The position numbers and the translations under genes were made by a program. This document shows positions 23,008 through 31,674 of a DNA stretch of 43,469 bases, piece after piece. Within the stretch, counting starts at the first letter, position 1. The number at the start of each line of letters is the position of its first letter. Under the pieces are notes generated by a model. That model did not search any database, had not been told where the DNA came from, and saw nothing but the letters and a program-made list of their open reading frames with translations. This DNA is from a virus, in IMG/VR virus record IMGVR_UViG_3300032893_000109, positions 1 to 43,469 of that record. One strand, 5' to 3'.

Positions 23008-25198
23008 AGAAATTCCGCCATTTATCGACATTTCTCAAACACCACGGGCGCACCCGTATCGACGTCCCTGGAAAGCGAATCTGCCAGCTAGGATCGTCGC
23101 TCAATCGGTGCGCTTTCGCCGACAAAAGCGCTGTTGCGGCACCGCGCCAGTTTTCCTGCAACACGTATCCTGCGTCGTGCTGCATGTGTCCTATATACGC
23201 AAACCACTGTTGCGCCGTGAACAAGTCACCCGGCGCTTCGGCACAGAACAACACCCAGAGTTGATCCAATTCGGACTGGGATGCGGCGACCATTCGCGCC
23301 TTCCCCCCAGTCATCGGCGCCGGCGCGAACGGATCGTAGGTACACTGCCGATCGCGCAGTTCGCGCCAAAGCGCGCCGATGTTTTCCGCGACCCCTAGCC
23401 ACGCATGCAGCCGCCGATAGAATTCCGCTGCCCTGACGCGACCCCCCGTCAGCACGATCAGCCGCCGATCGCCTGAATCGATCGCCAGCGCGTCGGCGTT
23501 GTTGGTGGCGATGAACAATGACGCGTACACCGTAATCGATCCTGAAGCGACCCCTTTCCTGACGACGAATTGGCGCGACGCTTGCGTCTCGACCGTTTCC
23601 TTGATCGCTTCGTATGCCCTTTTCCGCGCGTGCCAGTCGTTTGCGTGCGCGTGCGATGAATCGGACGCCTCGGCAATCGTGGTCATGAGCGTGCCGTCGA
23701 GCCAATCCGAATACTGCGACTGATACGTCGAGCCAAACACGTGCCCCAGTTTCATCGCTTTGCAGTAGGCCGGTCCGATCAGCCGCGACATGATCTCGAC
23801 CAAAGTTCCGCGGCCTGTGCCAGTCAGTTCCGATGCCACGACCATGCCGTGCATCCGCAGCCACGGCCGCTGCACTTTCGTGGCGATCCAATCCACCAAT
23901 AGCGCGCGCTCGACGGGATCGGGGATCAATCCGTCCATGAAGTCCCAGAACAGTCCCGTCGTGCCGCCTTCCTGGGGGTGCGCCGGCGCGACGTAGGTGT
24001 TGAGAACTCTGACGCCATCGAGCACCAAAACGCGCTCTGATGACGTCGGAACGAATTCAGCGCGCTCGCACACCACGGCACCGTTCTCGAGCCAATAGTT
24101 GACGAGTAGCTTGCGCGACGCGCCGTCGATGACCCACGCGCGCTTTCCCTGGGAGAACGAAGCCAGCTTCACGCCCACCGTTGGCGCGGCGAACCGCCGC
24201 ACCGTGCCGTCCGACATCACGTAGCAGTAATCCTCTGTGAGTTCCTGGAGTGTCGTCCTAGCGGGCGGCTCGAAGATGCCACCAGGAACCAAACGCGCGG
24301 CCGCCAGCGCTGCGTTGAGGGCAGCCCCTGCGTCATCGTCCACCTGAAGATCCAAACGCTCCCTATACGTGACGCCAGTGACGAAATCGACGATCACGAC
24401 AGAACCATCGCCGCCGCGGCGAACCATGCCGCCCTGAGAGTCCGATGTCGGCCGAATCGCGGTCAGATTGCACGGCCAGCCATCGGCGCCGGCTTCGCGC
24501 AATTCGGCCACCGTCAGCATGCCGTGGTCCAGGCAATCGAAGACCATGTCGTCCGTCAGCACGTAATCGTGCTGAGGTGTTTCCCAAATTTGGCCGCCGG
24601 GAGATTCGAGCGGGCGGCCGGTCGCAGCCAACAGCGGCTCGAGCCGTTCAATTAGCACTTCGACTTGCGCGCGCTTGACGCCAGGAAGCTCGTCGACGGA
24701 TCCATCCAATGGTGAGATCGAATCCCACCGGTACGGCTCGCCCGTGGTGGGGTGAATGCCGAACGCGGCGAACTGACACCCAAGCCCCAACACTTCGACT
24801 TGCTGGCCGCCGTAGCGTCCTGTACGCAGTTTGCGGCCCGGCTCGTCTGTCCAGTACACCAACAGTCGCCGAGAACCGCGCCCCCAACGGCACCACGCCG
24901 TTTCACCCAAAGATTCTTCGACGCACTCTTCGACCAGATCCGCCAAGTCCGGATCGTCGCAATCGACGTCGATCGCCACGACGTTGCCGCAGCGGATCCC
25001 TGTGTTGGCGTAGCGGCCGTTGCGGCGAAAGCCGTCGAGCCAGTCCGAGGTGATCTCGACGTGCGACCATCCGGGGATGAAGCACGCCTTGCCGTCCAAT
25101 GGCAGCGGTTCGAAGCCGTTGGCGAGCAGCGTGCGGCGTAGACTGTTTCGATCGTGACTCGACGTGATATCATTCTTGCCGTCAGTTCCCCCTGACAT
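22895..25198 (-). CDS. PrimPol-helicase (bifunctional primase/polymerase plus D5-like SF3 helicase)
   Basis: 767 residues. ATG 25198 with AGAGAGG seven bases upstream. N-terminal PrimPol domain (to about 210): catalytic VVAIDVDCDD with D77 and D79, then SRRLLVYW and QFAAFGIHPTTGEPYRW. After a linker comes the helicase: Walker A-like TGTGRGTL with Arg463 where Lys is expected, Walker B-like MTTIAEASD, sensor SLFIATNNADAL, and arginine-finger-like DSGDRR. This domain order is that of phage and plasmid replication initiators that prime and unwind. It is transcribed last in the leftward replication cluster, with a repeat-rich AT segment at its 3' end. Confidence 0.85.
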   Translation of the reverse strand: MSGGTDGKNDITSSHDRNSLRRTLLANGFEPLPLDGKACFIPGWSHVEITSDWLDGFRRNGRYANTGIRCGNVVAIDVDCDDPDLADLVEECVEESLGETAWCRWGRGSRRLLVYWTDEPGRKLRTGRYGGQQVEVLGLGCQFAAFGIHPTTGEPYRWDSISPLDGSVDELPGVKRAQVEVLIERLEPLLAATGRPLESPGGQIWETPQHDYVLTDDMVFDCLDHGMLTVAELREAGADGWPCNLTAIRPTSDSQGGMVRRGGDGSVVIVDFVTGVTYRERLDLQVDDDAGAALNAALAAARLVPGGIFEPPARTTLQELTEDYCYVMSDGTVRRFAAPTVGVKLASFSQGKRAWVIDGASRKLLVNYWLENGAVVCERAEFVPTSSERVLVLDGVRVLNTYVAPAHPQEGGTTGLFWDFMDGLIPDPVERALLVDWIATKVQRPWLRMHGMVVASELTGTGRGTLVEIMSRLIGPAYCKAMKLGHVFGSTYQSQYSDWLDGTLMTTIAEASDSSHAHANDWHARKRAYEAIKETVETQASRQFVVRKGVASGSITVYASLFIATNNADALAIDSGDRRLIVLTGGRVRAAEFYRRLHAWLGVAENIGALWRELRDRQCTYDPFAPAPMTGGKARMVAASQSELDQLWVLFCAEAPGDLFTAQQWFAYIGHMQHDAGYVLQENWRGAATALLSAKAHRLSDDPSWQIRFPGTSIRVRPWCLRNVDKWRNFCHTGENSVCVTELLKNGDPTQKVAKLTGPPWTVTPTP

Positions 25199-25236
25199 AG
25201 CGAAGCCTCTCTATTTTTGAAGGTGATGCGTCCTCA

Positions 25237-25262
25237 AACGCCCGCTGCCGCGGGCGTTCTTT
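25237..25262. terminator. Hairpin between PrimPol-helicase and upstream genes
   Basis: A 9-bp stem AACGCCCGC / GCGGGCGTT with loop TGCC, followed rightward by CTTTTC. On the leftward strand no T-run follows. It looks like a terminator for rightward (antisense) RNA, or an attenuator for the leftward operon. Confidence 0.5.
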
Positions 25263-25272
25263 TCTCGACCTG

Positions 25273-25458
25273 TTACAAGTTCTCCGGTACGTGCTGCCGT
25301 TCGCGTGACAGCGGCTTGATCACCACCGCTGACACGCCGTCGGGGATCTGTTGAATGCAACCGCCGCGTGCGACGAACGCTTCGATGTGTCGAGCGATCT
25401 CGGCGCTATCGACGCGCGGCGGGATCTTGTACGACGGGTATTCCGATTTCTTGCTCAA
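25273..25458 (-). CDS. Small conserved-type phage protein, 61 aa
   Basis: ATG 25458, overlapping the end of the HNH gene. Pattern SAEIARHIEAFVARGGCIQQ then IPDGVSA resembles small phage proteins with a short helix, G-G-x-I and I-P-x-G motif. These are often found beside replication genes and may bind DNA. Function unknown. Confidence 0.6.
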   Translation of the reverse strand: MSKKSEYPSYKIPPRVDSAEIARHIEAFVARGGCIQQIPDGVSAVVIKPLSRERQHVPENL

Positions 25459-25865
25459 AAAGGCACTCCTTCCCGTGGCGCGCGGCCGGACACGTACGAC
25501 AGTTCGCCGTCCCAGTCGTCAACCGGCATGAGCACATCCATGCGCCGCCGGCGCGCCATGTCTTCGTTTTGTTTGCGGGTGTTGTCCGCGACGCTGAGCC
25601 ACTGACAGTTCGTCGGGTGGTAGCCGTCGAGCGGGTCGATCCGATCGAGCGAATTGCGCGCTCGACAGTAACCCGTCGACAGCGACCACTCGCGGAAGTG
25701 CAGCCACCCCTCGAAACCGATCGGTAGCCCGGCCCAAGGTGTTGCGGTGCGATTGCCGGCGGCTTTACCGGCAACGCGGGCACGCAGGTTGTTCCACGAG
25801 CGATACAACCGGATCAACCGAACTTGCCCGCGCCGCGTTGTCCACTTGACGGTGTAAACCGCCAT
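25455..25865 (-). CDS. Free-standing HNH endonuclease
   Basis: 136 residues from ATG 25865. Contains RLYRSWNNLRARV, GLPIGFEGWLHFREWSL, and the core SLDRIDPLDGYHPTNCQWLS followed by NTRKQNED, the pattern of the large phage HNH family (L-D-R-I-D-x-x-x-G-Y-x-P-x-N-C-x-W). The C-terminal tail is short. Likely a homing endonuclease that cleaves a related genome at an allelic site; target unknown. It stands alone between small genes, not in an intron or intein. Confidence 0.75.
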   Translation of the reverse strand: MAVYTVKWTTRRGQVRLIRLYRSWNNLRARVAGKAAGNRTATPWAGLPIGFEGWLHFREWSLSTGYCRARNSLDRIDPLDGYHPTNCQWLSVADNTRKQNEDMARRRRMDVLMPVDDWDGELSYVSGRAPREGVPF

Positions 25866-25868
25866 GTT

Positions 25869-26174
25869 TCAGAGGCGAATACCGGAAAGAATTTGCGCCC
25901 AGCGCGTGTGGCCCTCTTCGCTCGAATCGTCGAACGCGACGCGCGCATTCGCCAGATCCGCCGCGACTTGGTCGCGCATCACCTGTGCGCGTTCGTTGTC
26001 GTACGCTTCCAGGATCGTCTGCACGCGCGCCAATTCCGCGCCTAACTGATCCTTCGGGGTCAGCGGCGTTGCCGCCGCAGCGGCCGCGCTGGCAGCCTCA
26101 GCCGACGTTGCCGCCGCAGCGGCCACGCTGGCAGCCTCAGCCGACGCTGCCAGCGTGTCGTTTGCTTCACTCAT
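25869..26174 (-). CDS. Alanine-rich protein with tandem 13-residue duplication, 101 aa
   Basis: ATG 26174 with GGAGG five bases upstream; an upstream in-frame start is not needed. The N-terminal half is an Ala/Ser/Glu helix made of two near-identical 13-residue units. The C-terminal half is helical and charged (QLGAELARVQTILEAYDNER; VAADLANARVAFDDSSEEGH). No recognised family. Located upstream of an HNH gene and downstream of the Acb2-like gene. Confidence 0.6.
   Translation of the reverse strand: MSEANDTLAASAEAASVAAAAATSAEAASAAAAAATPLTPKDQLGAELARVQTILEAYDNERAQVMRDQVAADLANARVAFDDSSEEGHTRWAQILSGIRL
26068..26145. repeat. Two tandem 39-bp repeats in coding DNA
   Basis: Units 26068-26106 and 26107-26145 differ at only one visible position. 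Because 39 is a multiple of three, the reading frame is kept and an Ala-rich 13-residue helix segment is duplicated. This looks recent. Confidence 0.85.
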
Positions 26175-26193
26175 TCTTGCCTCCGTCTCCGGG

Positions 26194-26412
26194 TTAGAAA
26201 AAGGTCGGTTTGGCAATGGCGCGGGTGAGCGCCATCAACCCTTCTTGCAAGTGGGTGCGGCCGATTGCCACCCAACGCGGGTCAGCATCCGCCGGCATTG
26301 ATGCGACCAAATCACCGAGCGCAACACCCTGCTCTTTGATCCGGTTCATCCGATCGATCTCCTCTTGCGACAGTTCGCGGTAGCCCTTGATCTGACGATG
26401 TTGGTTATCCAT
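26194..26412 (-). CDS. acb2: Acb2-like anti-CBASS cyclic-nucleotide sponge
   Basis: 72 residues: HRQIKGYRELSQEEIDRMN, IKEQGVALGDLV, DPRWVAIGRTHLQEGLMALT, RAIAKPTFF. This matches the small all-helical Acb2/Tad1-hairpin family. Its characterised members bind cyclic di- and trinucleotides in a hexamer and keep CBASS effectors inactive. The family pattern RxL-xxEEI-xxMN-xIK and the L-x-x-G-x-M-A-L-x-R-A-I-A-x-P end are intact. The gene lies in the middle of the leftward early and replication block, suited to early expression. Recognised from memory of the family, not by search. Confidence 0.75.
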   Translation of the reverse strand: MDNQHRQIKGYRELSQEEIDRMNRIKEQGVALGDLVASMPADADPRWVAIGRTHLQEGLMALTRAIAKPTFF

Positions 26413-26413
26413 G

Positions 26414-26605
26414 TCAGTGGTTCCACTTCGCCGCGTTGCGCGCGAAGTTCGCTTTCTTCTTCATCTTCGGCGACGCCTTGCTGCCGGGTGCCAGTTCCTT
26501 CGCCGCGAACGCTTGCACACCCATGCCGGCTTTCTTCGCCGCCTTGGTGAATGTACCGCGGTTCGCCTTCTTGATGGTGCCGATCTTTCCGCCTTTCTTC
26601 GCCAT
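26414..26605 (-). CDS. Small basic protein, 63 aa
   Basis: ATG 26605 (an upstream in-frame start overlaps the HNH-AP2 gene and is rejected). Lysine-rich N-terminus MAKKGGKIGTIKKANRGTFT, then AAKKAGMGVQAFAAKELAPG and a conserved-looking ending NFARNAAKWNH. Small basic proteins with this ending are common in phages; probably nucleic-acid binding. Directly upstream of the Acb2-like gene. Confidence 0.65.
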   Translation of the reverse strand: MAKKGGKIGTIKKANRGTFTKAAKKAGMGVQAFAAKELAPGSKASPKMKKKANFARNAAKWNH

Positions 26606-26606
26606 G

Positions 26607-27101
26607 TCAAACTCCGTGGTTGGGGTGAAAACCGAACTCGCGCTCGGCCTTTTTGCGTGCGGCAACTGCCGCGTCGAACTCCTTGAACCGTCCGAGATAG
26701 TAGCGCTTACCGCGGTAGCCGATCATGGCCGACCACGCACCGTGGTTCTTCGTCACACCGGCAACACCAGATGTGTTGCGCGCATCGAGTCGCTTGTTGA
26801 GATTGTTGGTGTGCTCGGCAACTTCACGTAGGTTCTGCCATGCGTTGTTCAATCCGTCGTGGTCTATGTGATCCACGCGCAAGGGCCAACGATCGAGCAT
26901 GTAGAAGAAAGCGAGACGGTGTGCGAGATAGCGGCGGTAATCGATCGTGATGCCGATGTACCAGCTTTTGCTTGAACGGCCACCCGACTGCACGCGACCG
27001 CCTGCAAGCTCGCGACGACGTCCGGCTTTCGTATCATTCCACCAGAAAAAGCCTGTGATCGGATCGTAGGTGACAATGGTCCGAAGCTGCTGAGGCGTCA
27101 T
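26607..27101 (-). CDS. HNH-AP2 homing endonuclease
   Basis: 164 residues from ATG 27101, which overlaps the TGA of the DNA polymerase gene (ATGA); the longer in-frame start at 27158 lies inside the polymerase gene. N-terminal part has TYDPITGFFWWNDTKAGRR, a family signature. HNH core YLAHRLAFFYMLDRWPLRVD then HIDHDGLNNAWQNLREV. C-terminal AP2 DNA-binding domain SGVAGVTKNHGAWSAMIGYR then YYLGRFKEFDAAVAARK. It sits immediately after the intein-bearing polymerase, as a third endonuclease at this locus. Confidence 0.85.
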   Translation of the reverse strand: MTPQQLRTIVTYDPITGFFWWNDTKAGRRRELAGGRVQSGGRSSKSWYIGITIDYRRYLAHRLAFFYMLDRWPLRVDHIDHDGLNNAWQNLREVAEHTNNLNKRLDARNTSGVAGVTKNHGAWSAMIGYRGKRYYLGRFKEFDAAVAARKKAEREFGFHPNHGV

Positions 27102-30100
27102 TTTGTATAGTATGGTCCTGCATCGATAGTCGCGGATAAGGGCAATCCGGCAGCCCATTCAGGCAAGAAAAGCATGTTTTCTTTTAGCCGTTCTCGCCAA
27201 AGGTATTCGTCCGCTTCAGCAACCTCAAGAACTATCTCGTCGTGTACGTGAAGAATGCAGGAATCTGAAAGTTGTGAGAGAGCCCGGCGCAAAAACGATG
27301 CGGAGGTGGCCTGTGTGACGTTTTCGCAGTTGTGGACGATGAGCGGTTGTCCATCACGTCCTCGAACAACAAATTGGTGTAGCGGGCCACAATTCAGGAT
27401 GTCGTAGACTTCCGCCGTCTGTTGTTCGCCTGTTCGATACGAGTCGCCCAGCGGCAGTTCTTCGGTGTGTAGTTGCCGTTGTTGTTCCGACGATCGAGGG
27501 TGAGTCCTTTTACGTAGGTGGGATGCATGTCGCGCCAAAAATTCTCGAAACGCAACCATCGGCGACAAACCGAAATCCCGCGACCGCCGTAATTCTTCCA
27601 CGCTCGATGTCGTGGGTTCGTGCATCGAGCTTTCATGGAGCGCCACACCCAGTACAACGGGTGCTGCGTCAGTCCGTGGGTACGACGTGCCGCCGCTAAC
27701 TGAATGCGCACCTTGCAACCGCAAGAATGATCGGAACGCCGTTTTAAATCGCCGGCCGCCACGGTATGAGATTTCCCGCACACGCAGCGACAAACCCAAA
27801 ACAAACCGCGTCGCGGCGGACGCCGGAGTGGCGTTAACGCCGTCAGGTAGCCGAACGTTTTGCCGCTTAAGTCCTCGGCGTTGTGCTTCGCTTGCTGTGT
27901 TCCAACCTTCATGTGTGAGTACCAGGTGATCTGGAGTCATCAAGACACCGTACACGTCAATAGTACCTCTCTTACCGTTCCGTACCACTCCTGAATGCAC
28001 AACCCAGTTTTCACCGTCCCAAACACGATCTGCGGCGGCAACGCTTTCGATGGGAATCCAGCCGCGCGAGGTTAAAACCTCGGTGCCACGCGCTATGCAG
28101 AGGGTGCCGTACCAGAGTTCCACGCGAGCGATGCCCGCGCTAAATCCTTTGACAAACGTAGTGCGGATTCGCGTGATGCCGTCTTCAGTCTCATAGCGTT
28201 CTCGTTTCAGTTGCGGGTAGACGATCCAACGGCCGCACGGCAACGCGCAGATCATCGTGCCGCGCATCAATGCCGGGTGGAACAGATAGCGCACGCGTCC
28301 GGCTCGGAACCATTCGCCGGGGTGTTGCCAGGCGCCGACGAATGCTCCCCATAGAGCATCCCAGAAGTCACGAGCCCAACTGTTGACGCGCCGCCATCCG
28401 TCGACGATAGCTCGCACTTGTTCTTCGGGGAGAGCGACGCCGTAATTCCGTCCCATCGCCGCAAACGCGCCGACGCTTCCCCCGAAACCAAGCGCAAGTT
28501 CGGGTACTTTTCCGTACGCTTGTCGTTCATGTGCGGTGATCTCCTCAACGGCTTTGCCCAAAATGCCGGCGGCCATGATCTTGTACACCGGCGCACCGGT
28601 GCGGAATAGCTCGAGCTTTGCCTCGGCGCCAGGCGAGTCGGCGAGCCACGGCAACACGCGCGCTTCGATCTGATCCCAATCGCCCCACACGAGCACCTTA
28701 CCTTCGGGCGCGATGAAGGTGGGTCGGATCAGTCGAGCCAACAGCCGTGACATCGGCAGTTCGTAGACGTCTTCCAACGACTCAGCCGAGGCGCCGGCGA
28801 GAATGTCTTCGATCGCATCCATCGCGCGATCGGGATCGTCCGCATCGAGCGGCGCGCGAATTAGGTTGTGGATCTGGACCCCGCGACTAGAGTTGTGGTG
28901 CGCTACGCCTTCTGAAACGTAGCTGTGATCTCCGCTAACACAGATGTCCCAAACTGTTCTTTCTCCCACAGAGACAACCCACGTAATTTCTGGGCGTGCA
29001 ACAATTGATGCCCGCGCTTCGTCACCAACGCGAAGTTGTCGGGGCGATTGTCGGTTGGATCGTCGTTGATGTGGTGAATCTCCCAACCAACCGGCCAACG
29101 TTTCAGTCTGAGTTCTTTCATCAATACGCGGCGATGCTCGTACACGTACTGCTGCGTTTCGTGATCCCACGACGCCAGATATTTTGCGCGACGAATTGGA
29201 CCACCCGCTTTCCGCAAACCAAACATCGGATTGCGTGTACCGAGTTTCGAGCGCGAGTGATTCGCTCCACGACGTTTCTTGCGCGTTGCTTCGTCGACAT
29301 CCTCCGCGATGATGCGGCGAATCGTTTCGTAGCTCGTTTGCCAGTGCTGCGCAATTTGGTCGATCGTCTCGAATTGCTTCAGGTATCGATCGACTACCTG
29401 ACGCCGAAACGTTTTGTCGCGCAAAAGATTCGAGTTCGCTGACATGCCGCCATTCCCCGTCGTGCCAAATTCGGTGGCCGGCGGTACACGTCACGTGACC
29501 ACCGTGGGCGAATTCGATGCGATACATCGCTTCGACGCCTTTGGTACATTTTGACACAACCGGCCTGTATCGGCCACAATGTGTCAGCACGAAATCGCCG
29601 ACGGCTATCTGATCAATACGTATCGGTCCGCGCGCGGTTTCGATTAGAGTTGCAGCATCGACACAAAATCGTCCCGTCTGTCCCGCGCCGTTGAAGGAAT
29701 ACGAACCATGCACACGCCCATCACTGCACACCTGATTGGCTATAGCCGTGAACTTGCGAACAGCAGCGCTGTTTCCCGCTTCCAAGATCCCCAGAAATGT
29801 GACGATGCGCGACAAGTGCACGTCGTCAAACAGTTGAGCGAAGTCTGGATTTGCCAGTGCGGTCGCTACCGCTTCGCGGGTGCTTCGATCAGCACTTTGA
29901 CGGGCAGTCTCAACGCCATTTTTCTCGCGCGGCGGTCGGATGACGAGCGCCTGTAGTTCCGGTGACGGCCACAACTGATCGCGCAGCCACTTCGCTTTCA
30001 GCACGTGGTTGGTGACGGTGAGATTTTCGATGCCGGTCAACTCGAATAGTTGCCGGTTGAGATCGGCATTCTCGGCGTTGGCGTAGCGCATCGCGGCGCG

Positions 30101-30736
30101 CGCGAAATCGTGATCGACGGCGACGCCGCGATCGTTGATGCGTTCCGAGGCGTGATACTCGGCCCATTCATCGAGCGTCAGCGGGCGCGTTGAGTTCCAC
30201 ACGTTGCGCATGACTTCGGTGTCCTTCGCGCCGTACGCGCGAAAGCGGCCGAGCTTGGCGTGATTCGCCGGGTTCCAATCCTCACGCGTGCCGTGCGACA
30301 GTTCCGCAATCAGCCCTTTGCCGGCGCGATCCTTCGCCGGCAGTCCCAACGCTTCGCACGCTTTCTCGAGCTTGCCCGGCAAGTTGTTCGCTTCGGCTTG
30401 CGCCTGCGCGCACAGCCATTGTTCCGGACGCGTGCGCGGCCATTGGTAGTCGCGCCGCGTCATCACTTCATTCCAGATGTGCCGATCGAAAAATGCGTTC
30501 CACGCGATCAGGTAGCCGCCGTCGGCGACGTGATCGAACAGATCGAGCAGTGCGGCGGGCGCTTGATCGTCGCTACCCCAACACCACCACGGCGACCACA
30601 CGTGCGCCGGTTCGTTGTCGAATGCCCACGTCCACACCAACACGTCCGTCGATGGGTCGCGCGCGTACTTGTACGCACCGACCGCTTTCAGATCGGCGAG
30701 CGAGCGCGTTTCGCTATCGAGAAACACGAGCGTCAC
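27098..30736 (-). CDS. Family A DNA polymerase precursor containing two inteins
   Basis: 1212 codons; GTG start overlapping the stop of a small upstream gene. N-terminal 3'-5' exonuclease: FLDSETRS at 5-12 and GGYLIAWNAFFDRHIW at 73-88. Intein 1 (358-615) interrupts the conserved T-G-R-x|S-S motif (QTGRF then SSRGVQIHN). Polymerase motif A is VWGDWDQIEARVLPWL (683-698), motif B ERQAYGKVPELALGFGG (737-753). Intein 2 (880-1136) interrupts WYGTL|CENVTQATS. Motif C is LHVHDEIVLEV (1162-1172). After splicing, 697 residues remain, a normal size for a phage PolA. It replicates the genome with the PrimPol-helicase. Confidence 0.92.
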   Translation of the reverse strand: MTLVFLDSETRSLADLKAVGAYKYARDPSTDVLVWTWAFDNEPAHVWSPWWCWGSDDQAPAALLDLFDHVADGGYLIAWNAFFDRHIWNEVMTRRDYQWPRTRPEQWLCAQAQAEANNLPGKLEKACEALGLPAKDRAGKGLIAELSHGTREDWNPANHAKLGRFRAYGAKDTEVMRNVWNSTRPLTLDEWAEYHASERINDRGVAVDHDFARAAMRYANAENADLNRQLFELTGIENLTVTNHVLKAKWLRDQLWPSPELQALVIRPPREKNGVETARQSADRSTREAVATALANPDFAQLFDDVHLSRIVTFLGILEAGNSAAVRKFTAIANQVCSDGRVHGSYSFNGAGQTGRFCVDAATLIETARGPIRIDQIAVGDFVLTHCGRYRPVVSKCTKGVEAMYRIEFAHGGHVTCTAGHRIWHDGEWRHVSELESFARQNVSASGSRSIPEAIRDDRPNCAALANELRNDSPHHRGGCRRSNAQETSWSESLALETRYTQSDVWFAESGWSNSSRKISGVVGSRNAAVRVRASPRIDERTQTETLAGWLGDSPHQRRSNRQSPRQLRVGDEARASIVARPEITWVVSVGERTVWDICVSGDHSYVSEGVAHHNSSRGVQIHNLIRAPLDADDPDRAMDAIEDILAGASAESLEDVYELPMSRLLARLIRPTFIAPEGKVLVWGDWDQIEARVLPWLADSPGAEAKLELFRTGAPVYKIMAAGILGKAVEEITAHERQAYGKVPELALGFGGSVGAFAAMGRNYGVALPEEQVRAIVDGWRRVNSWARDFWDALWGAFVGAWQHPGEWFRAGRVRYLFHPALMRGTMICALPCGRWIVYPQLKRERYETEDGITRIRTTFVKGFSAGIARVELWYGTLCIARGTEVLTSRGWIPIESVAAADRVWDGENWVVHSGVVRNGKRGTIDVYGVLMTPDHLVLTHEGWNTASEAQRRGLKRQNVRLPDGVNATPASAATRFVLGLSLRVREISYRGGRRFKTAFRSFLRLQGAHSVSGGTSYPRTDAAPVVLGVALHESSMHEPTTSSVEELRRSRDFGLSPMVAFREFLARHASHLRKRTHPRSSEQQRQLHTEELPLGDSYRTGEQQTAEVYDILNCGPLHQFVVRGRDGQPLIVHNCENVTQATSASFLRRALSQLSDSCILHVHDEIVLEVAEADEYLWRERLKENMLFLPEWAAGLPLSATIDAGPYYTK
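27329..28099 (-). mobile_element. Intein 2 of the DNA polymerase (257 residues)
   Basis: Starts with Cys880 in CIARGTEVLTSRGWIPIESV (block A), block B near MTPDHLVLTHEGW (residues about 933-945), C-terminal block F-like AEVYDILNCGPLHQFVV and block G ending LIVHN at 1136. The +1 extein residue is Cys1137. All residues needed for standard splicing (Cys1, block B His, penultimate His, terminal Asn, Cys+1) are visible. Between blocks B and F the intein frame is not recognisable but stays open. That interval is the +1-frame endonuclease gene at 27394-27912. Confidence 0.9.
27394..27912 (-). CDS. HNH endonuclease nested in the +1 frame of intein 2
   Basis: 172 residues from ATG 27912. N-terminal FGYLTALTPL, zinc-finger cysteines C41, C43, C45, C64 and C66 (VCRCVCGK, SCGCK), then HPLYWVWRSMKARCTNPRHR, WKNYGGRGISVCRRW, and HNH core LTLDRRNNNGNYTPKNCRW (137-155) followed by QANNRRR. 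This is the full-length pattern of a widespread phage HNH family, so it is a real protein, not a shadow. The ATG lies in intein block B and the stop precedes block F. No clear SD; expression may use coupling or weak initiation. Confidence 0.88.
   Translation of the reverse strand: MKVGTQQAKHNAEDLSGKTFGYLTALTPLRRPPRRGLFWVCRCVCGKSHTVAAGDLKRRSDHSCGCKVRIQLAAARRTHGLTQHPLYWVWRSMKARCTNPRHRAWKNYGGRGISVCRRWLRFENFWRDMHPTYVKGLTLDRRNNNGNYTPKNCRWATRIEQANNRRRKSTTS
28892..29665 (-). mobile_element. Intein 1 of the DNA polymerase (258 residues)
   Basis: Starts with Cys358 in CVDAATLIETARGPIRIDQI (block A); block B VTCTAGHRIW (415-424). C-terminal blocks ITWVVSVGERTVWDICV and SGDHSYVSEGVAHHN end at Asn615 with penultimate His; the +1 residue is Ser616. 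All canonical splice residues are present. The central part (about 440-580) is low-complexity R/S-rich and has no LAGLIDADG or HNH motif in this frame. It is the other-frame reading of the endonuclease gene at 28903-29445. Confidence 0.9.
28903..29445 (-). CDS. HNH endonuclease nested in the +1 frame of intein 1
   Basis: 180 residues from ATG 29445. N-terminal helix-turn-helix-like part (FETIDQIAQHWQTSYETIRR), NUMOD-like TRNPMFGLRKAG, HNH core WEIHHINDDPTDNRPDNFAL (121-140; H124, H125, N133, N137) with downstream H146 and H150. Complete and typical, so coding. It starts just after intein block B and runs to four codons before the intein end, so its last 35 residues share DNA with the C-terminal splicing blocks. 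The +1 frame is the same relative frame as in intein 2. The weak upstream GGGG is the only SD-like sequence. Confidence 0.88.
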   Translation of the reverse strand: MSANSNLLRDKTFRRQVVDRYLKQFETIDQIAQHWQTSYETIRRIIAEDVDEATRKKRRGANHSRSKLGTRNPMFGLRKAGGPIRRAKYLASWDHETQQYVYEHRRVLMKELRLKRWPVGWEIHHINDDPTDNRPDNFALVTKRGHQLLHAQKLRGLSLWEKEQFGTSVLAEITATFQKA

Positions 30737-30876
30737 GATGGCGTGCTTTTCTTTAACGCCCGATTGAGTCGGTACATGACGCCGGACAAATTTCCGTCTA
30801 CCGTCTTCAGCGCCCTTGGTTCGCGGCGCTTGCTACGCGGTTTACGGTGTCCCGCTGTCTTGTGGGGCTTTTTCAC
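30733..30876 (-). CDS. Small basic protein upstream of DNA polymerase, 47 aa
   Basis: GTG 30876, stop TGA overlapping the GTG of the polymerase gene (GTGA). Begins MKKPHKTAGHRKPRSKRREP and ends with a helix (SGVMYRLNRALKK). The stop/start overlap and fit into the gap support it. The SD is weak. A hairpin lies just upstream. It may couple polymerase translation. No family recognised. Confidence 0.5.
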   Translation of the reverse strand: MKKPHKTAGHRKPRSKRREPRALKTVDGNLSGVMYRLNRALKKSTPS

Positions 30877-30887
30877 GACGAAAGATC

Positions 30888-30906
30888 GGGGGCGCAATGC
30901 GCCCCC
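30888..30906 (-). terminator. Hairpin between the 251-residue gene and the polymerase operon
   Basis: 8-bp GC stem GGGGGCGC / GCGCCCCC with a 3-base loop, 12 bases after the upstream stop. Leftward it is followed by GATCTTTCG (short T-run), rightward by TTTCCTT. Probably a partial terminator or attenuator that lowers polymerase expression. Confidence 0.55.
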
Positions 30907-30918
30907 TTTCCTTCTCGG

Positions 30919-31674
30919 TTACGCCGTCGCACGACGACGTCGCCGAGCACCCGCGGCAGCTTCGGGCGACGCGGCGGCTGGGGAGGCGGTGGCGTCGGCC
31001 TGTGCAGGCGGGGGTGTTGCAGCCGCAGCCGGCGTGGCTGCAACCGGAGCCGGTTGTGCGGCTGCCAGCGCCGGTGCGGGGGCACCGACACTGTTTCCTT
31101 GCGCGTCGATCCAACGCAGCACCGAGAGCACGGGCGTGAAGGTCAACCCGTGTTTCTTGTGCTGGTAGGAATCGACGCCGAGATCGATCACCGGATACGG
31201 GTGCGCCGGATCGGTTTGCACTTGCTGCATGATCTCGACGATCAATTTCTTGATCGCTGATCGGAAGCCGAGCGCAGTCGATTTGTAGAGCACGGTGACG
31301 CCTTCGTCTTCGCCGTTCAGACATTTCAACTCGACCGATGCTTCCTGCTTCCATTCGCCGCCGTAGTCCGGCAGCGCGTTGCGGTCGGGCGCCGGCAGAT
31401 TGAACGGCACCAACTGTTCGCCGAGCAATTCGCTGTCCACCCAGCACGCGTAGCCGTGCTGCAGTGTGTGCAAATTGACGGCCCATTCGCTGCCTTCCTC
31501 CACGGCCAGATTCTCCGGACCGAAGACGAACTCGCCGGACTTGATCAACCGCAGGATGGGCAGACCGCCGCCGATACCGGATGCGATGTTGCCGCCCATG
31601 TTCTGCAGCCCCTTCATCAGCTCGGCCGGGTTGGCCGGTAGGTGCGAACCGAACGTAGCTATTTCCTGACTCAC
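30919..31674 (-). CDS. Putative single-stranded DNA-binding-type protein with Ala/Pro-rich tail, 251 aa
   Basis: GTG 31674 overlapping the TGA of the DUF2800 gene, with GGAG nearby; the longer in-frame ORF is only a shadow. Beta-rich body (GGLPILRLIKSGEFVFGPEN, EEGSEWAVNLHTLQHGYACW, KKLIVEIMQQVQ, TFTPVLSVLRWI). Then comes a flexible Ala/Pro tail of about 55 residues ending in RRRRR. A gene in this place, beside a DUF2800 nuclease, is often a ssDNA-binding protein (DUF2815-like), but I do not see the usual signature. Assignment is by context only. Confidence 0.55.
   Translation of the reverse strand: MSQEIATFGSHLPANPAELMKGLQNMGGNIASGIGGGLPILRLIKSGEFVFGPENLAVEEGSEWAVNLHTLQHGYACWVDSELLGEQLVPFNLPAPDRNALPDYGGEWKQEASVELKCLNGEDEGVTVLYKSTALGFRSAIKKLIVEIMQQVQTDPAHPYPVIDLGVDSYQHKKHGLTFTPVLSVLRWIDAQGNSVGAPAPALAAAQPAPVAATPAAAATPPPAQADATASPAAASPEAAAGARRRRRATA

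Follow-up and report, generated by a model that had tools for sequence, protein, structure and literature searches.

Two inteins of a viral DNA polymerase each contain an HNH endonuclease gene in the +1 frame, an arrangement shared by many relatives

The family A DNA polymerase gene of a virus contains two inteins, each of which encloses an HNH endonuclease gene on the same strand in the +1 frame. The sequence analyzed, hereafter called the window, is a metagenomic IMG/VR virus record of 43,469 bases with a GC content of 0.609. A two-layer mobile intein with an autonomous +1 HNH gene is, with high probability, the best explanation of this arrangement, and the computed support for it comprises the anatomy of the inserts, open frames, the purging of stop codons, selection divided between the frames, Hint folds, and a similarity among inteins that exceeds that among their exteins. 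Because dozens of other phages and prophages are alike and the stop codons of the intein frame were purged, the arrangement is a general design and not a curiosity; sequence comparisons confirm it as such beyond one sequence, in inteins that appear to be mobile.

In the outer layer, a mini-intein with the Hint fold would splice itself from the polymerase. The inner layer would be an autonomous HNH homing-endonuclease gene, placed in +1 in the loop that normally holds an in-frame endonuclease domain. Most ribosomes would stay in the polymerase frame and translate the overlap into a disordered linker that is removed with the intein, and other ribosomes would initiate at the internal HNH start and produce a free endonuclease, which may cut intein-less polymerase alleles, with repair copying the intein together with the HNH gene. 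Selection would act on the HNH protein in one frame and on the splicing blocks in the other, with the intein frame of the overlap having just to remain stop-free. Splicing, internal initiation, DNA cutting, and homing are the inferred parts of this model.

Results

The polymerase, its inteins, and the nested HNH genes

The features of the locus are compiled in Table 1. Both inteins possess an N-terminal Cys/Ser/Thr, a block B TxxH, a C-terminal His-Asn, and Cys/Ser/Thr at +1, as in Hint domains, and the removal of both is predicted to leave a spliced polymerase of 697 aa. Two polymerase relatives (L004 and L005, 52-60% identical) have intein-less alleles at exactly both window sites; their empty second site reads WYGML/AENITQ, in which Ala replaces the splicing-required Cys+1 of the intein-bearing allele. 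A split intein, in which the host gene lies in separate ORFs, was rejected because the window polymerase is unbroken as one ORF.

Table 1. Positions of the polymerase, its inteins and exteins, and the associated HNH genes in the window (slashes mark extein-intein junctions or the corresponding empty sites).
Feature	Position	Strand	Description
Family A DNA polymerase precursor ORF	30736..27098	minus	1,212 codons, single open frame across both inteins; PHROG 17, E 1e-68; Pfam DNA_pol_A
N-extein	29666..30736	minus	C-terminal end ...GQTGRF; empty-site relatives L004/L005 read GQTGRF/SSRG
Intein 1	29665..28892	minus	258 aa; C1, block B VTCTAGH, block F VWDICVSGDHSY, block G AHHN, +1 Ser; junction C...HHN/S
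HNH1	29445..28903	minus	180 aa, HTH + HNH_3, +1 frame within intein 1; Pfam HNH_3 (PF13392), E 4e-11; PHROG 7545, E 2e-18
Intein 1 blocks F + G	28892..28954	minus	28906-28954 also code for the HNH1 C-terminus
Middle extein	28100..28891	minus	SSRGVQIHN... to ...ELWYGTL
Intein 2	28099..27329	minus	257 aa; C1, VWDGENWV, block B TPDH, block F VYDILNCG, block G VHN, +1 Cys; junction C...VHN/C
HNH2	27912..27394	minus	172 aa, +1 frame within intein 2; PHROG 374 'HNH endonuclease', E 1e-58, 200.6 bits
C-extein	27098..27328	minus	CENVTQ... through stop
Third HNH gene, free-standing	26607..27101	minus	Directly 3' of polymerase, ATGA start/stop overlap; not nested; PHROG 99, E 2e-49

HNH1 scored 42.7 bits against the HNH_3 (PF13392) profile (cutoff 24.8), and HNH2 had no match in Pfam; a PDB sequence search with both proteins found nothing. 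Both genes start directly past intein block B. The 3' end of HNH1 crosses blocks F/G of intein 1 and stops 11 nt short of the intein end, and that of HNH2 coincides with the start of block F of intein 2. Another free-standing HNH gene, PHROG 3377-like, is located at 25455-25865 (minus), which gives four HNH genes in about 4 kb.

Since alternative frames are often open in GC-rich DNA, ORF length is poor evidence here, and homology and codon choice tell instead. In a null model in which the HNH protein was fixed and its synonymous codons were shuffled 5,000 times, the intein frame had no stops in HNH1 against 7.6 expected (0/5,000 shuffles were open, P < 1/5,000) and none in HNH2 against 5.7 expected (P = 0.0002), and the unused third frame had seven stops in HNH1 and nine in HNH2, matching the shuffle expectation. 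The claim in the preliminary description of a full HNH gene in the +1 frame inside each intein, with the intein frame unbroken, was thus confirmed, and the intein coordinates, relative frame, and insertion point that it gave proved exact on a recheck of the ORFs and junctions.

Relatives of intein 2

The census of the intein 2 family used a profile built from the blocks of intein 2, with one block motif as the seed, and drew on the best 80 of 435 viral-contig relatives, 56 genome-contig loci, polymerase relatives, and the phages APSE-1, SFCi1, and GB2A. Due to the single block-motif seed and the restriction to the best 80 of 435 viral loci, the frequencies below hold for one intein family. The census yielded 133 distinct complete inteins with a bimodal length distribution, 37 being 106-187 aa and 96 being 251-331 aa long. 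Every long intein contained an out-of-frame HNH gene of one broad family, which was in +1 in 94, in +2 in two (L201 and L202), and in frame in none, while the HNH gene was absent in 33 of the 37 short (mini-)inteins and present as a +1 remnant in the other four. A large intein with an in-frame endonuclease was rejected, given the +1 position of both window HNH genes and 0/96 long relatives in frame.

Nested inteins occur both on viral contigs and in bacterial genomes, as well as in APSE-1, Shewanella phage SFCi1, and Caulobacter phage GB2A. The host genes in the census mainly encode polymerase A, with inteins at several conserved sites; on the basis of flanking residues only, the host is terminase-like at L014 and helicase-like at L196, L197, and L209. 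The annotation of SFCi1 shows the polymerase only, and that of APSE-1 the overlapping ORF too (P45/P46).

Several loci showed other gene arrangements. At L007 (1481-4976) and L003 (4956-6791), the polymerase is apparently two genes, split between the N-terminal and polymerase parts, with the nested intein in the downstream half; a short ORF lies between the two genes at L007. At L215 (Pectobacterium phage Ymer, 1979-5185), three overlapping ORFs correspond to an intein N-half, a LAGLIDADG endonuclease in another frame, and an intein C-half fused to a helicase; the intein frame is discontinuous there, and the locus may represent either a nested intein that has broken or a split one.

Purging of stop codons and the +1 rule

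The census had required intein block F/G in the same ORF, a possible ascertainment bias, and the test was therefore rerun from the HNH side, with an upstream intein N-terminus accepted whatever its frame. This set comprised 107 nested and 23 free-standing HNH genes. The own intein frame was stop-free in 107/107 nested genes. When the frame that serves as the intein frame of +1 genes was scored throughout the nested set, 17 stops were found against 619 expected from synonymous shuffling, and all 17 fell in L201 and L202, which are both +2 and had none in their own intein frame. The equivalent frame of the free-standing genes had 257 stops against 273 expected.

With the +1 geometry, an intein-frame stop requires T as the last base of an HNH codon and AA, AG, or GA at the beginning of the following one. 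Third-position T before these dinucleotides occurred in 0/4,396 cases in nested HNH genes, against 21.8% elsewhere; the values for free-standing genes were 26.1% and 29.2%, respectively. A search over all synonymous codings of the HNH proteins revealed that no protein sequence in +1 can force an intein-frame stop. The +1 frame is tenable because each intein-frame stop needs T at an HNH third position, where a change from T to C is always silent. In +2, Met before certain residues whose codons obligatorily start with A creates an irreparable stop, and the mean number of unavoidable stops was 0.7-0.9 per HNH (one in HNH1 and two in HNH2). The proteins of the sole +2 nested HNH genes, L201 (from 4001) and L202 (from 2855), have no unavoidable +2 stop. 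The nested HNH proteins form five clusters at 40% identity, and the 94:2 bias to +1 may partly reflect common descent.

The HNH gene of L050 (4889-5476), upstream of which no intein N-terminus was detected, also has a wholly open 'intein frame', and may represent a recent departure from an intein.

Production of the HNH protein

An in-intein stop shuts the HNH frame upstream of the HNH start in 94/95 cases, which excludes a fusion via a far-upstream frameshift, and the frame opens at a median of intein nt 139, adjoining the commonest start at nt 145. In 54/96 long inteins, the codons of the intein motif KEVIxY spell out an ATG at intein nt 145 together with a Shine-Dalgarno-like sequence. The same pair was found in 13/37 mini-inteins, and the site may therefore predate any HNH arrival; the Shine-Dalgarno/ATG of many relatives is partly a by-product of the intein motif. 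At L225, GGGGGAGGAGG stands ahead of a GTG start. In the window, HNH1 has a weak Shine-Dalgarno sequence and HNH2 no clear one, with HNH-frame stops close upstream of its ATG and 24 nt between the frame opening and the ATG; internal initiation is thus inferred for these two genes. The proposal that the endonuclease is made as a free protein is supported by the upstream stops and by the strong Shine-Dalgarno and ATG of many relatives, although the window HNH2 has no clear Shine-Dalgarno.

Programmed frameshifting, instead of internal initiation, would produce an intein-HNH fusion, and is compatible with the +1 position of the HNH frame and with the start region of the window HNH2. We consider it very unlikely because the upstream stops leave little room between the opening and the start, many relatives have the Shine-Dalgarno-like motif with an ATG, and a shift in HNH2 would be confined to the 24 nt named above.

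Selection, decay, and mobility

The dN/dS ratio was estimated by region and frame in 11 independent close pairs of the intein 2 family. In the HNH core, the HNH frame had a ratio of 0.12, and the intein and third frames had ratios of 1.6 and 1.45, respectively; in the first 144 nt (the intein N-terminal blocks), the ratio was 0.13 in the intein frame and 1.4 in the HNH frame; and in the last 105 nt (blocks F/G), 0.33 and 1.03, respectively. Values above 1 are what an overlap is expected to produce in unused frames, and positive selection should not be read from them. Each stretch is constrained in one frame, and the property shared is openness. Since the HNH core is constrained in the HNH frame alone and the splicing blocks in the intein frame alone, the overlap in the intein frame is a passively open linker, and the arrangement does not amount to two working proteins from one stretch.

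HNH genes that are decaying passengers of inteins able to spread or persist without them would account for the mini-inteins interspersed with nested ones in the intein tree and for remnant or truncated HNH genes (L083, L138, L162, L170, and L208). The tree has 24 changes between nested and HNH-less states, of which well-supported branches force just two, and the HNH tree has six label changes and few supported branches; on the question of one versus several origins of nesting in the intein 2 family, the trees gave no decision because of the few supported branches. This reading is also improbable, to about the same degree as frameshifting, in view of the constraint on the HNH frame in the 11 independent pairs and of the similarity of inteins in close pairs, which exceeds that of the exteins in nearly all, with one exception (L118/L131). 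For example, intein identity was 99.9% in both L178/L174 and L017/L026, against extein identities of 93.8% and 90.8% in the former and 94.3% and 98.8% in the latter. An excess of this kind is expected if the element was copied between alleles, as in homing. Part of it could be due to added constraint, yet HNH third positions vary freely save for stops.

Nested HNH matches at L170 and L208 (both from 4001) cover the C-terminal part only, and the intein frame is still open, a pattern expected if the decay of the endonuclease leaves splicing unharmed. Regarding the origin of nesting, a typical free-standing HNH gene has about 11 stops in the would-be intein frame, and could therefore not have landed in an essential gene unless a genome with low third-position T, a duplicate, or a non-essential intermediate was the route.

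The preliminary description also proposed dual coding, and a true form of it, in which the intein-frame product of the HNH stretch is a selected functional domain, would suit a frame that is perfectly open and partly similar among relatives. A comparison of amino-acid constraint in both frames across relatives found constraint in the HNH frame and none in the intein frame of the overlap, where the ratio resembles that of the unused third frame, and mini-inteins exist without the HNH stretch. AlphaFold modeled intein 2 with a pLDDT of 97-98 at residues 1-80 and about 97-98 at 231-257, and mostly below 50 across the HNH stretch. The model of intein 1, which is of moderate confidence, placed the Hint halves at residues 1-82 and 225-258 (pLDDT roughly 75-90) with disorder between them (20-40). 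Its best PDB match was the gp41-1 intein (E 1e-6), and the intein 2 model matched mini-inteins, locally (TMq about 0.24) because the middle of the model is disordered; a Hint fold is thus predicted in both inteins. True dual coding is accordingly a slim prospect, and the earlier proposal holds weakly, in the sense that the frame is kept stop-free.

The reading of ordinary in-frame large inteins made to look shifted by sequencing or assembly errors, which the single metagenomic record would permit since single-base errors shift frames, was rejected as exceedingly improbable, because 94 inteins share this offset, their sources being independent assemblies and isolates that include APSE-1, SFCi1, and GB2A, and random indels would not leave the intein frame open through and flanking every HNH gene.

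The intein 1 family and group I introns

HNH1 shares 25-29% identity with HNH proteins encoded by group I introns of phage DNA polymerase genes. All of the annotated phage relatives inspected are flanked by the two halves of a DNA polymerase gene, and one relative, I-PfoP3I, is a characterized nickase in a group I intron of a phage DNA polymerase (PMC3428280). The I-PfoP3I-type intron HNHs belong to the family of HNH1, are found at the same TGRxSS...NLQN polymerase motif, and have an ORF that overlaps the core of the carrier; however, their carrier is a self-splicing RNA that needs no open frame. In a motif alignment, the intron HNH kin sit after TGRLSSSNP and intein 1 after TGRF, 15 nt upstream. 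Despite this kinship, group I introns with HNH genes were rejected as the nature of the inserts, with hardly any probability left to them, because the reading frame runs uninterrupted through both inserts, each has Hint blocks and a predicted Hint fold, and no Rfam intron was found in 25000-31500 of the window, whereas two HNH1-kin loci match the Rfam group I intron RF00028.

When viral contigs were scanned with HNH1 or intein 1 as a single query sequence, there were no hits. Only a profile built with the intron HNHs detected L225 and L226, and the 22 other loci of that scan were not nested. In L225 and L226, the polymerase contains an intein of 286 aa that resembles intein 1 in type and lies at the same motif, with an HNH1-like gene (34% identity) in +1; along their HNH stretch, no stop interrupts the intein frame (4.6 expected, P 0.0024), against 13 in the third frame. 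The design is therefore repeated by a second intein/HNH pair, from different families, with this second family comprising the window and two near-identical loci that amount to one independent relative. The same polymerase motif in Microcystis phage Mvi-JY20 (L216, 2501-2899) is occupied by a mini-intein of 133 aa, which belongs to the intein 1 type and has no HNH gene.

The suggestion of a repeatable invasion route is strengthened by two distinct intein/HNH pairs with the same +1 frame and insertion point, and by the recurrence of out-of-frame HNH genes in 96/96 long inteins and in L225/L226; the 2/96 in +2 depart from a single frame.

Discussion

Large inteins with an in-frame LAGLIDADG or HNH domain (PI-SceI type) resemble the window inteins in the Hint domain and in the coding of the endonuclease between blocks B and F, but their endonuclease is part of the intein polypeptide, whereas it is encoded as a separate protein in another frame here. 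In fractured genes, an endonuclease gene separates the two halves of a split intein; the endonuclease inside the intein is again free, while the host gene is physically split and that of the window is a single ORF. A 2025 preprint reportedly describes a 'non-canonical architecture' of actinobacteriophage inteins.

Closer precedents are in print. The ShiLan element and the Pacc40 insertion are out-of-frame HNH genes in phage DNA methylases, in which no splicing domain was found and the insertion is thus thought to be retained in the protein (Arsenault et al., 2025; PMC11855218). The ShiLan element is similar to the present case in having an out-of-frame HNH in a host gene that remains open and a patchy distribution suggesting homing; it differs in its carrier, which in the window is an intein that has all splicing blocks and is predicted to adopt a Hint fold. 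The nearest published statement of the same arrangement is a remark on a brucellaphage terminase, 'intein-encoded HNH ... out of frame', in which one SNP was said to be silent in the terminase; as compared by its description, it concerns one gene in one phage group and comes without an analysis of splicing blocks, frame constraint, or relatives. The GenBank record of APSE-1 (AF157835) annotates a DNA polymerase with an intein 2-type insert and an overlapping ORF (P45/P46), but shows two overlapping genes and nothing further, and no paper describing that arrangement was found in the literature searched. On whether the arrangement had been reported, which the preliminary description left aside, the answer is therefore partial: out-of-frame HNH insertions (PMC11855218), one remark on an out-of-frame intein HNH, and the APSE-1 overlap annotation are already known, and the generality, the stop-purging signal, and the genetic-code reason for +1 are new as far as the literature was searched. 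The search found no report of generality, stop-purging, or the frame rule, with the 2025 preprint on non-canonical intein architecture excluded from this statement.

We consider it likely, with less confidence than for the two-layer explanation of the window, that these inteins represent a general class in which a homing endonuclease was overprinted in +1 on a mini-intein, with at least two origins involving different intein and HNH families, and was held to +1 as the sole same-strand frame in which all stops are silently removable.

The overprinted gene would add to in-frame fusion and split genes a third and widespread means by which inteins have an endonuclease of their own, and one that is easily missed because annotation often calls the outer ORF only. 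As a natural example of overlapping genes, it is also exceptionally clean, with selection separable by frame and a simple genetic-code rule that predicts the frame. HNH1 shows one endonuclease family tied to the same polymerase motif via both group I introns and inteins. Since HNH-less, decayed, and nested forms coexist with empty sites, the origin of endonuclease-bearing inteins becomes testable.
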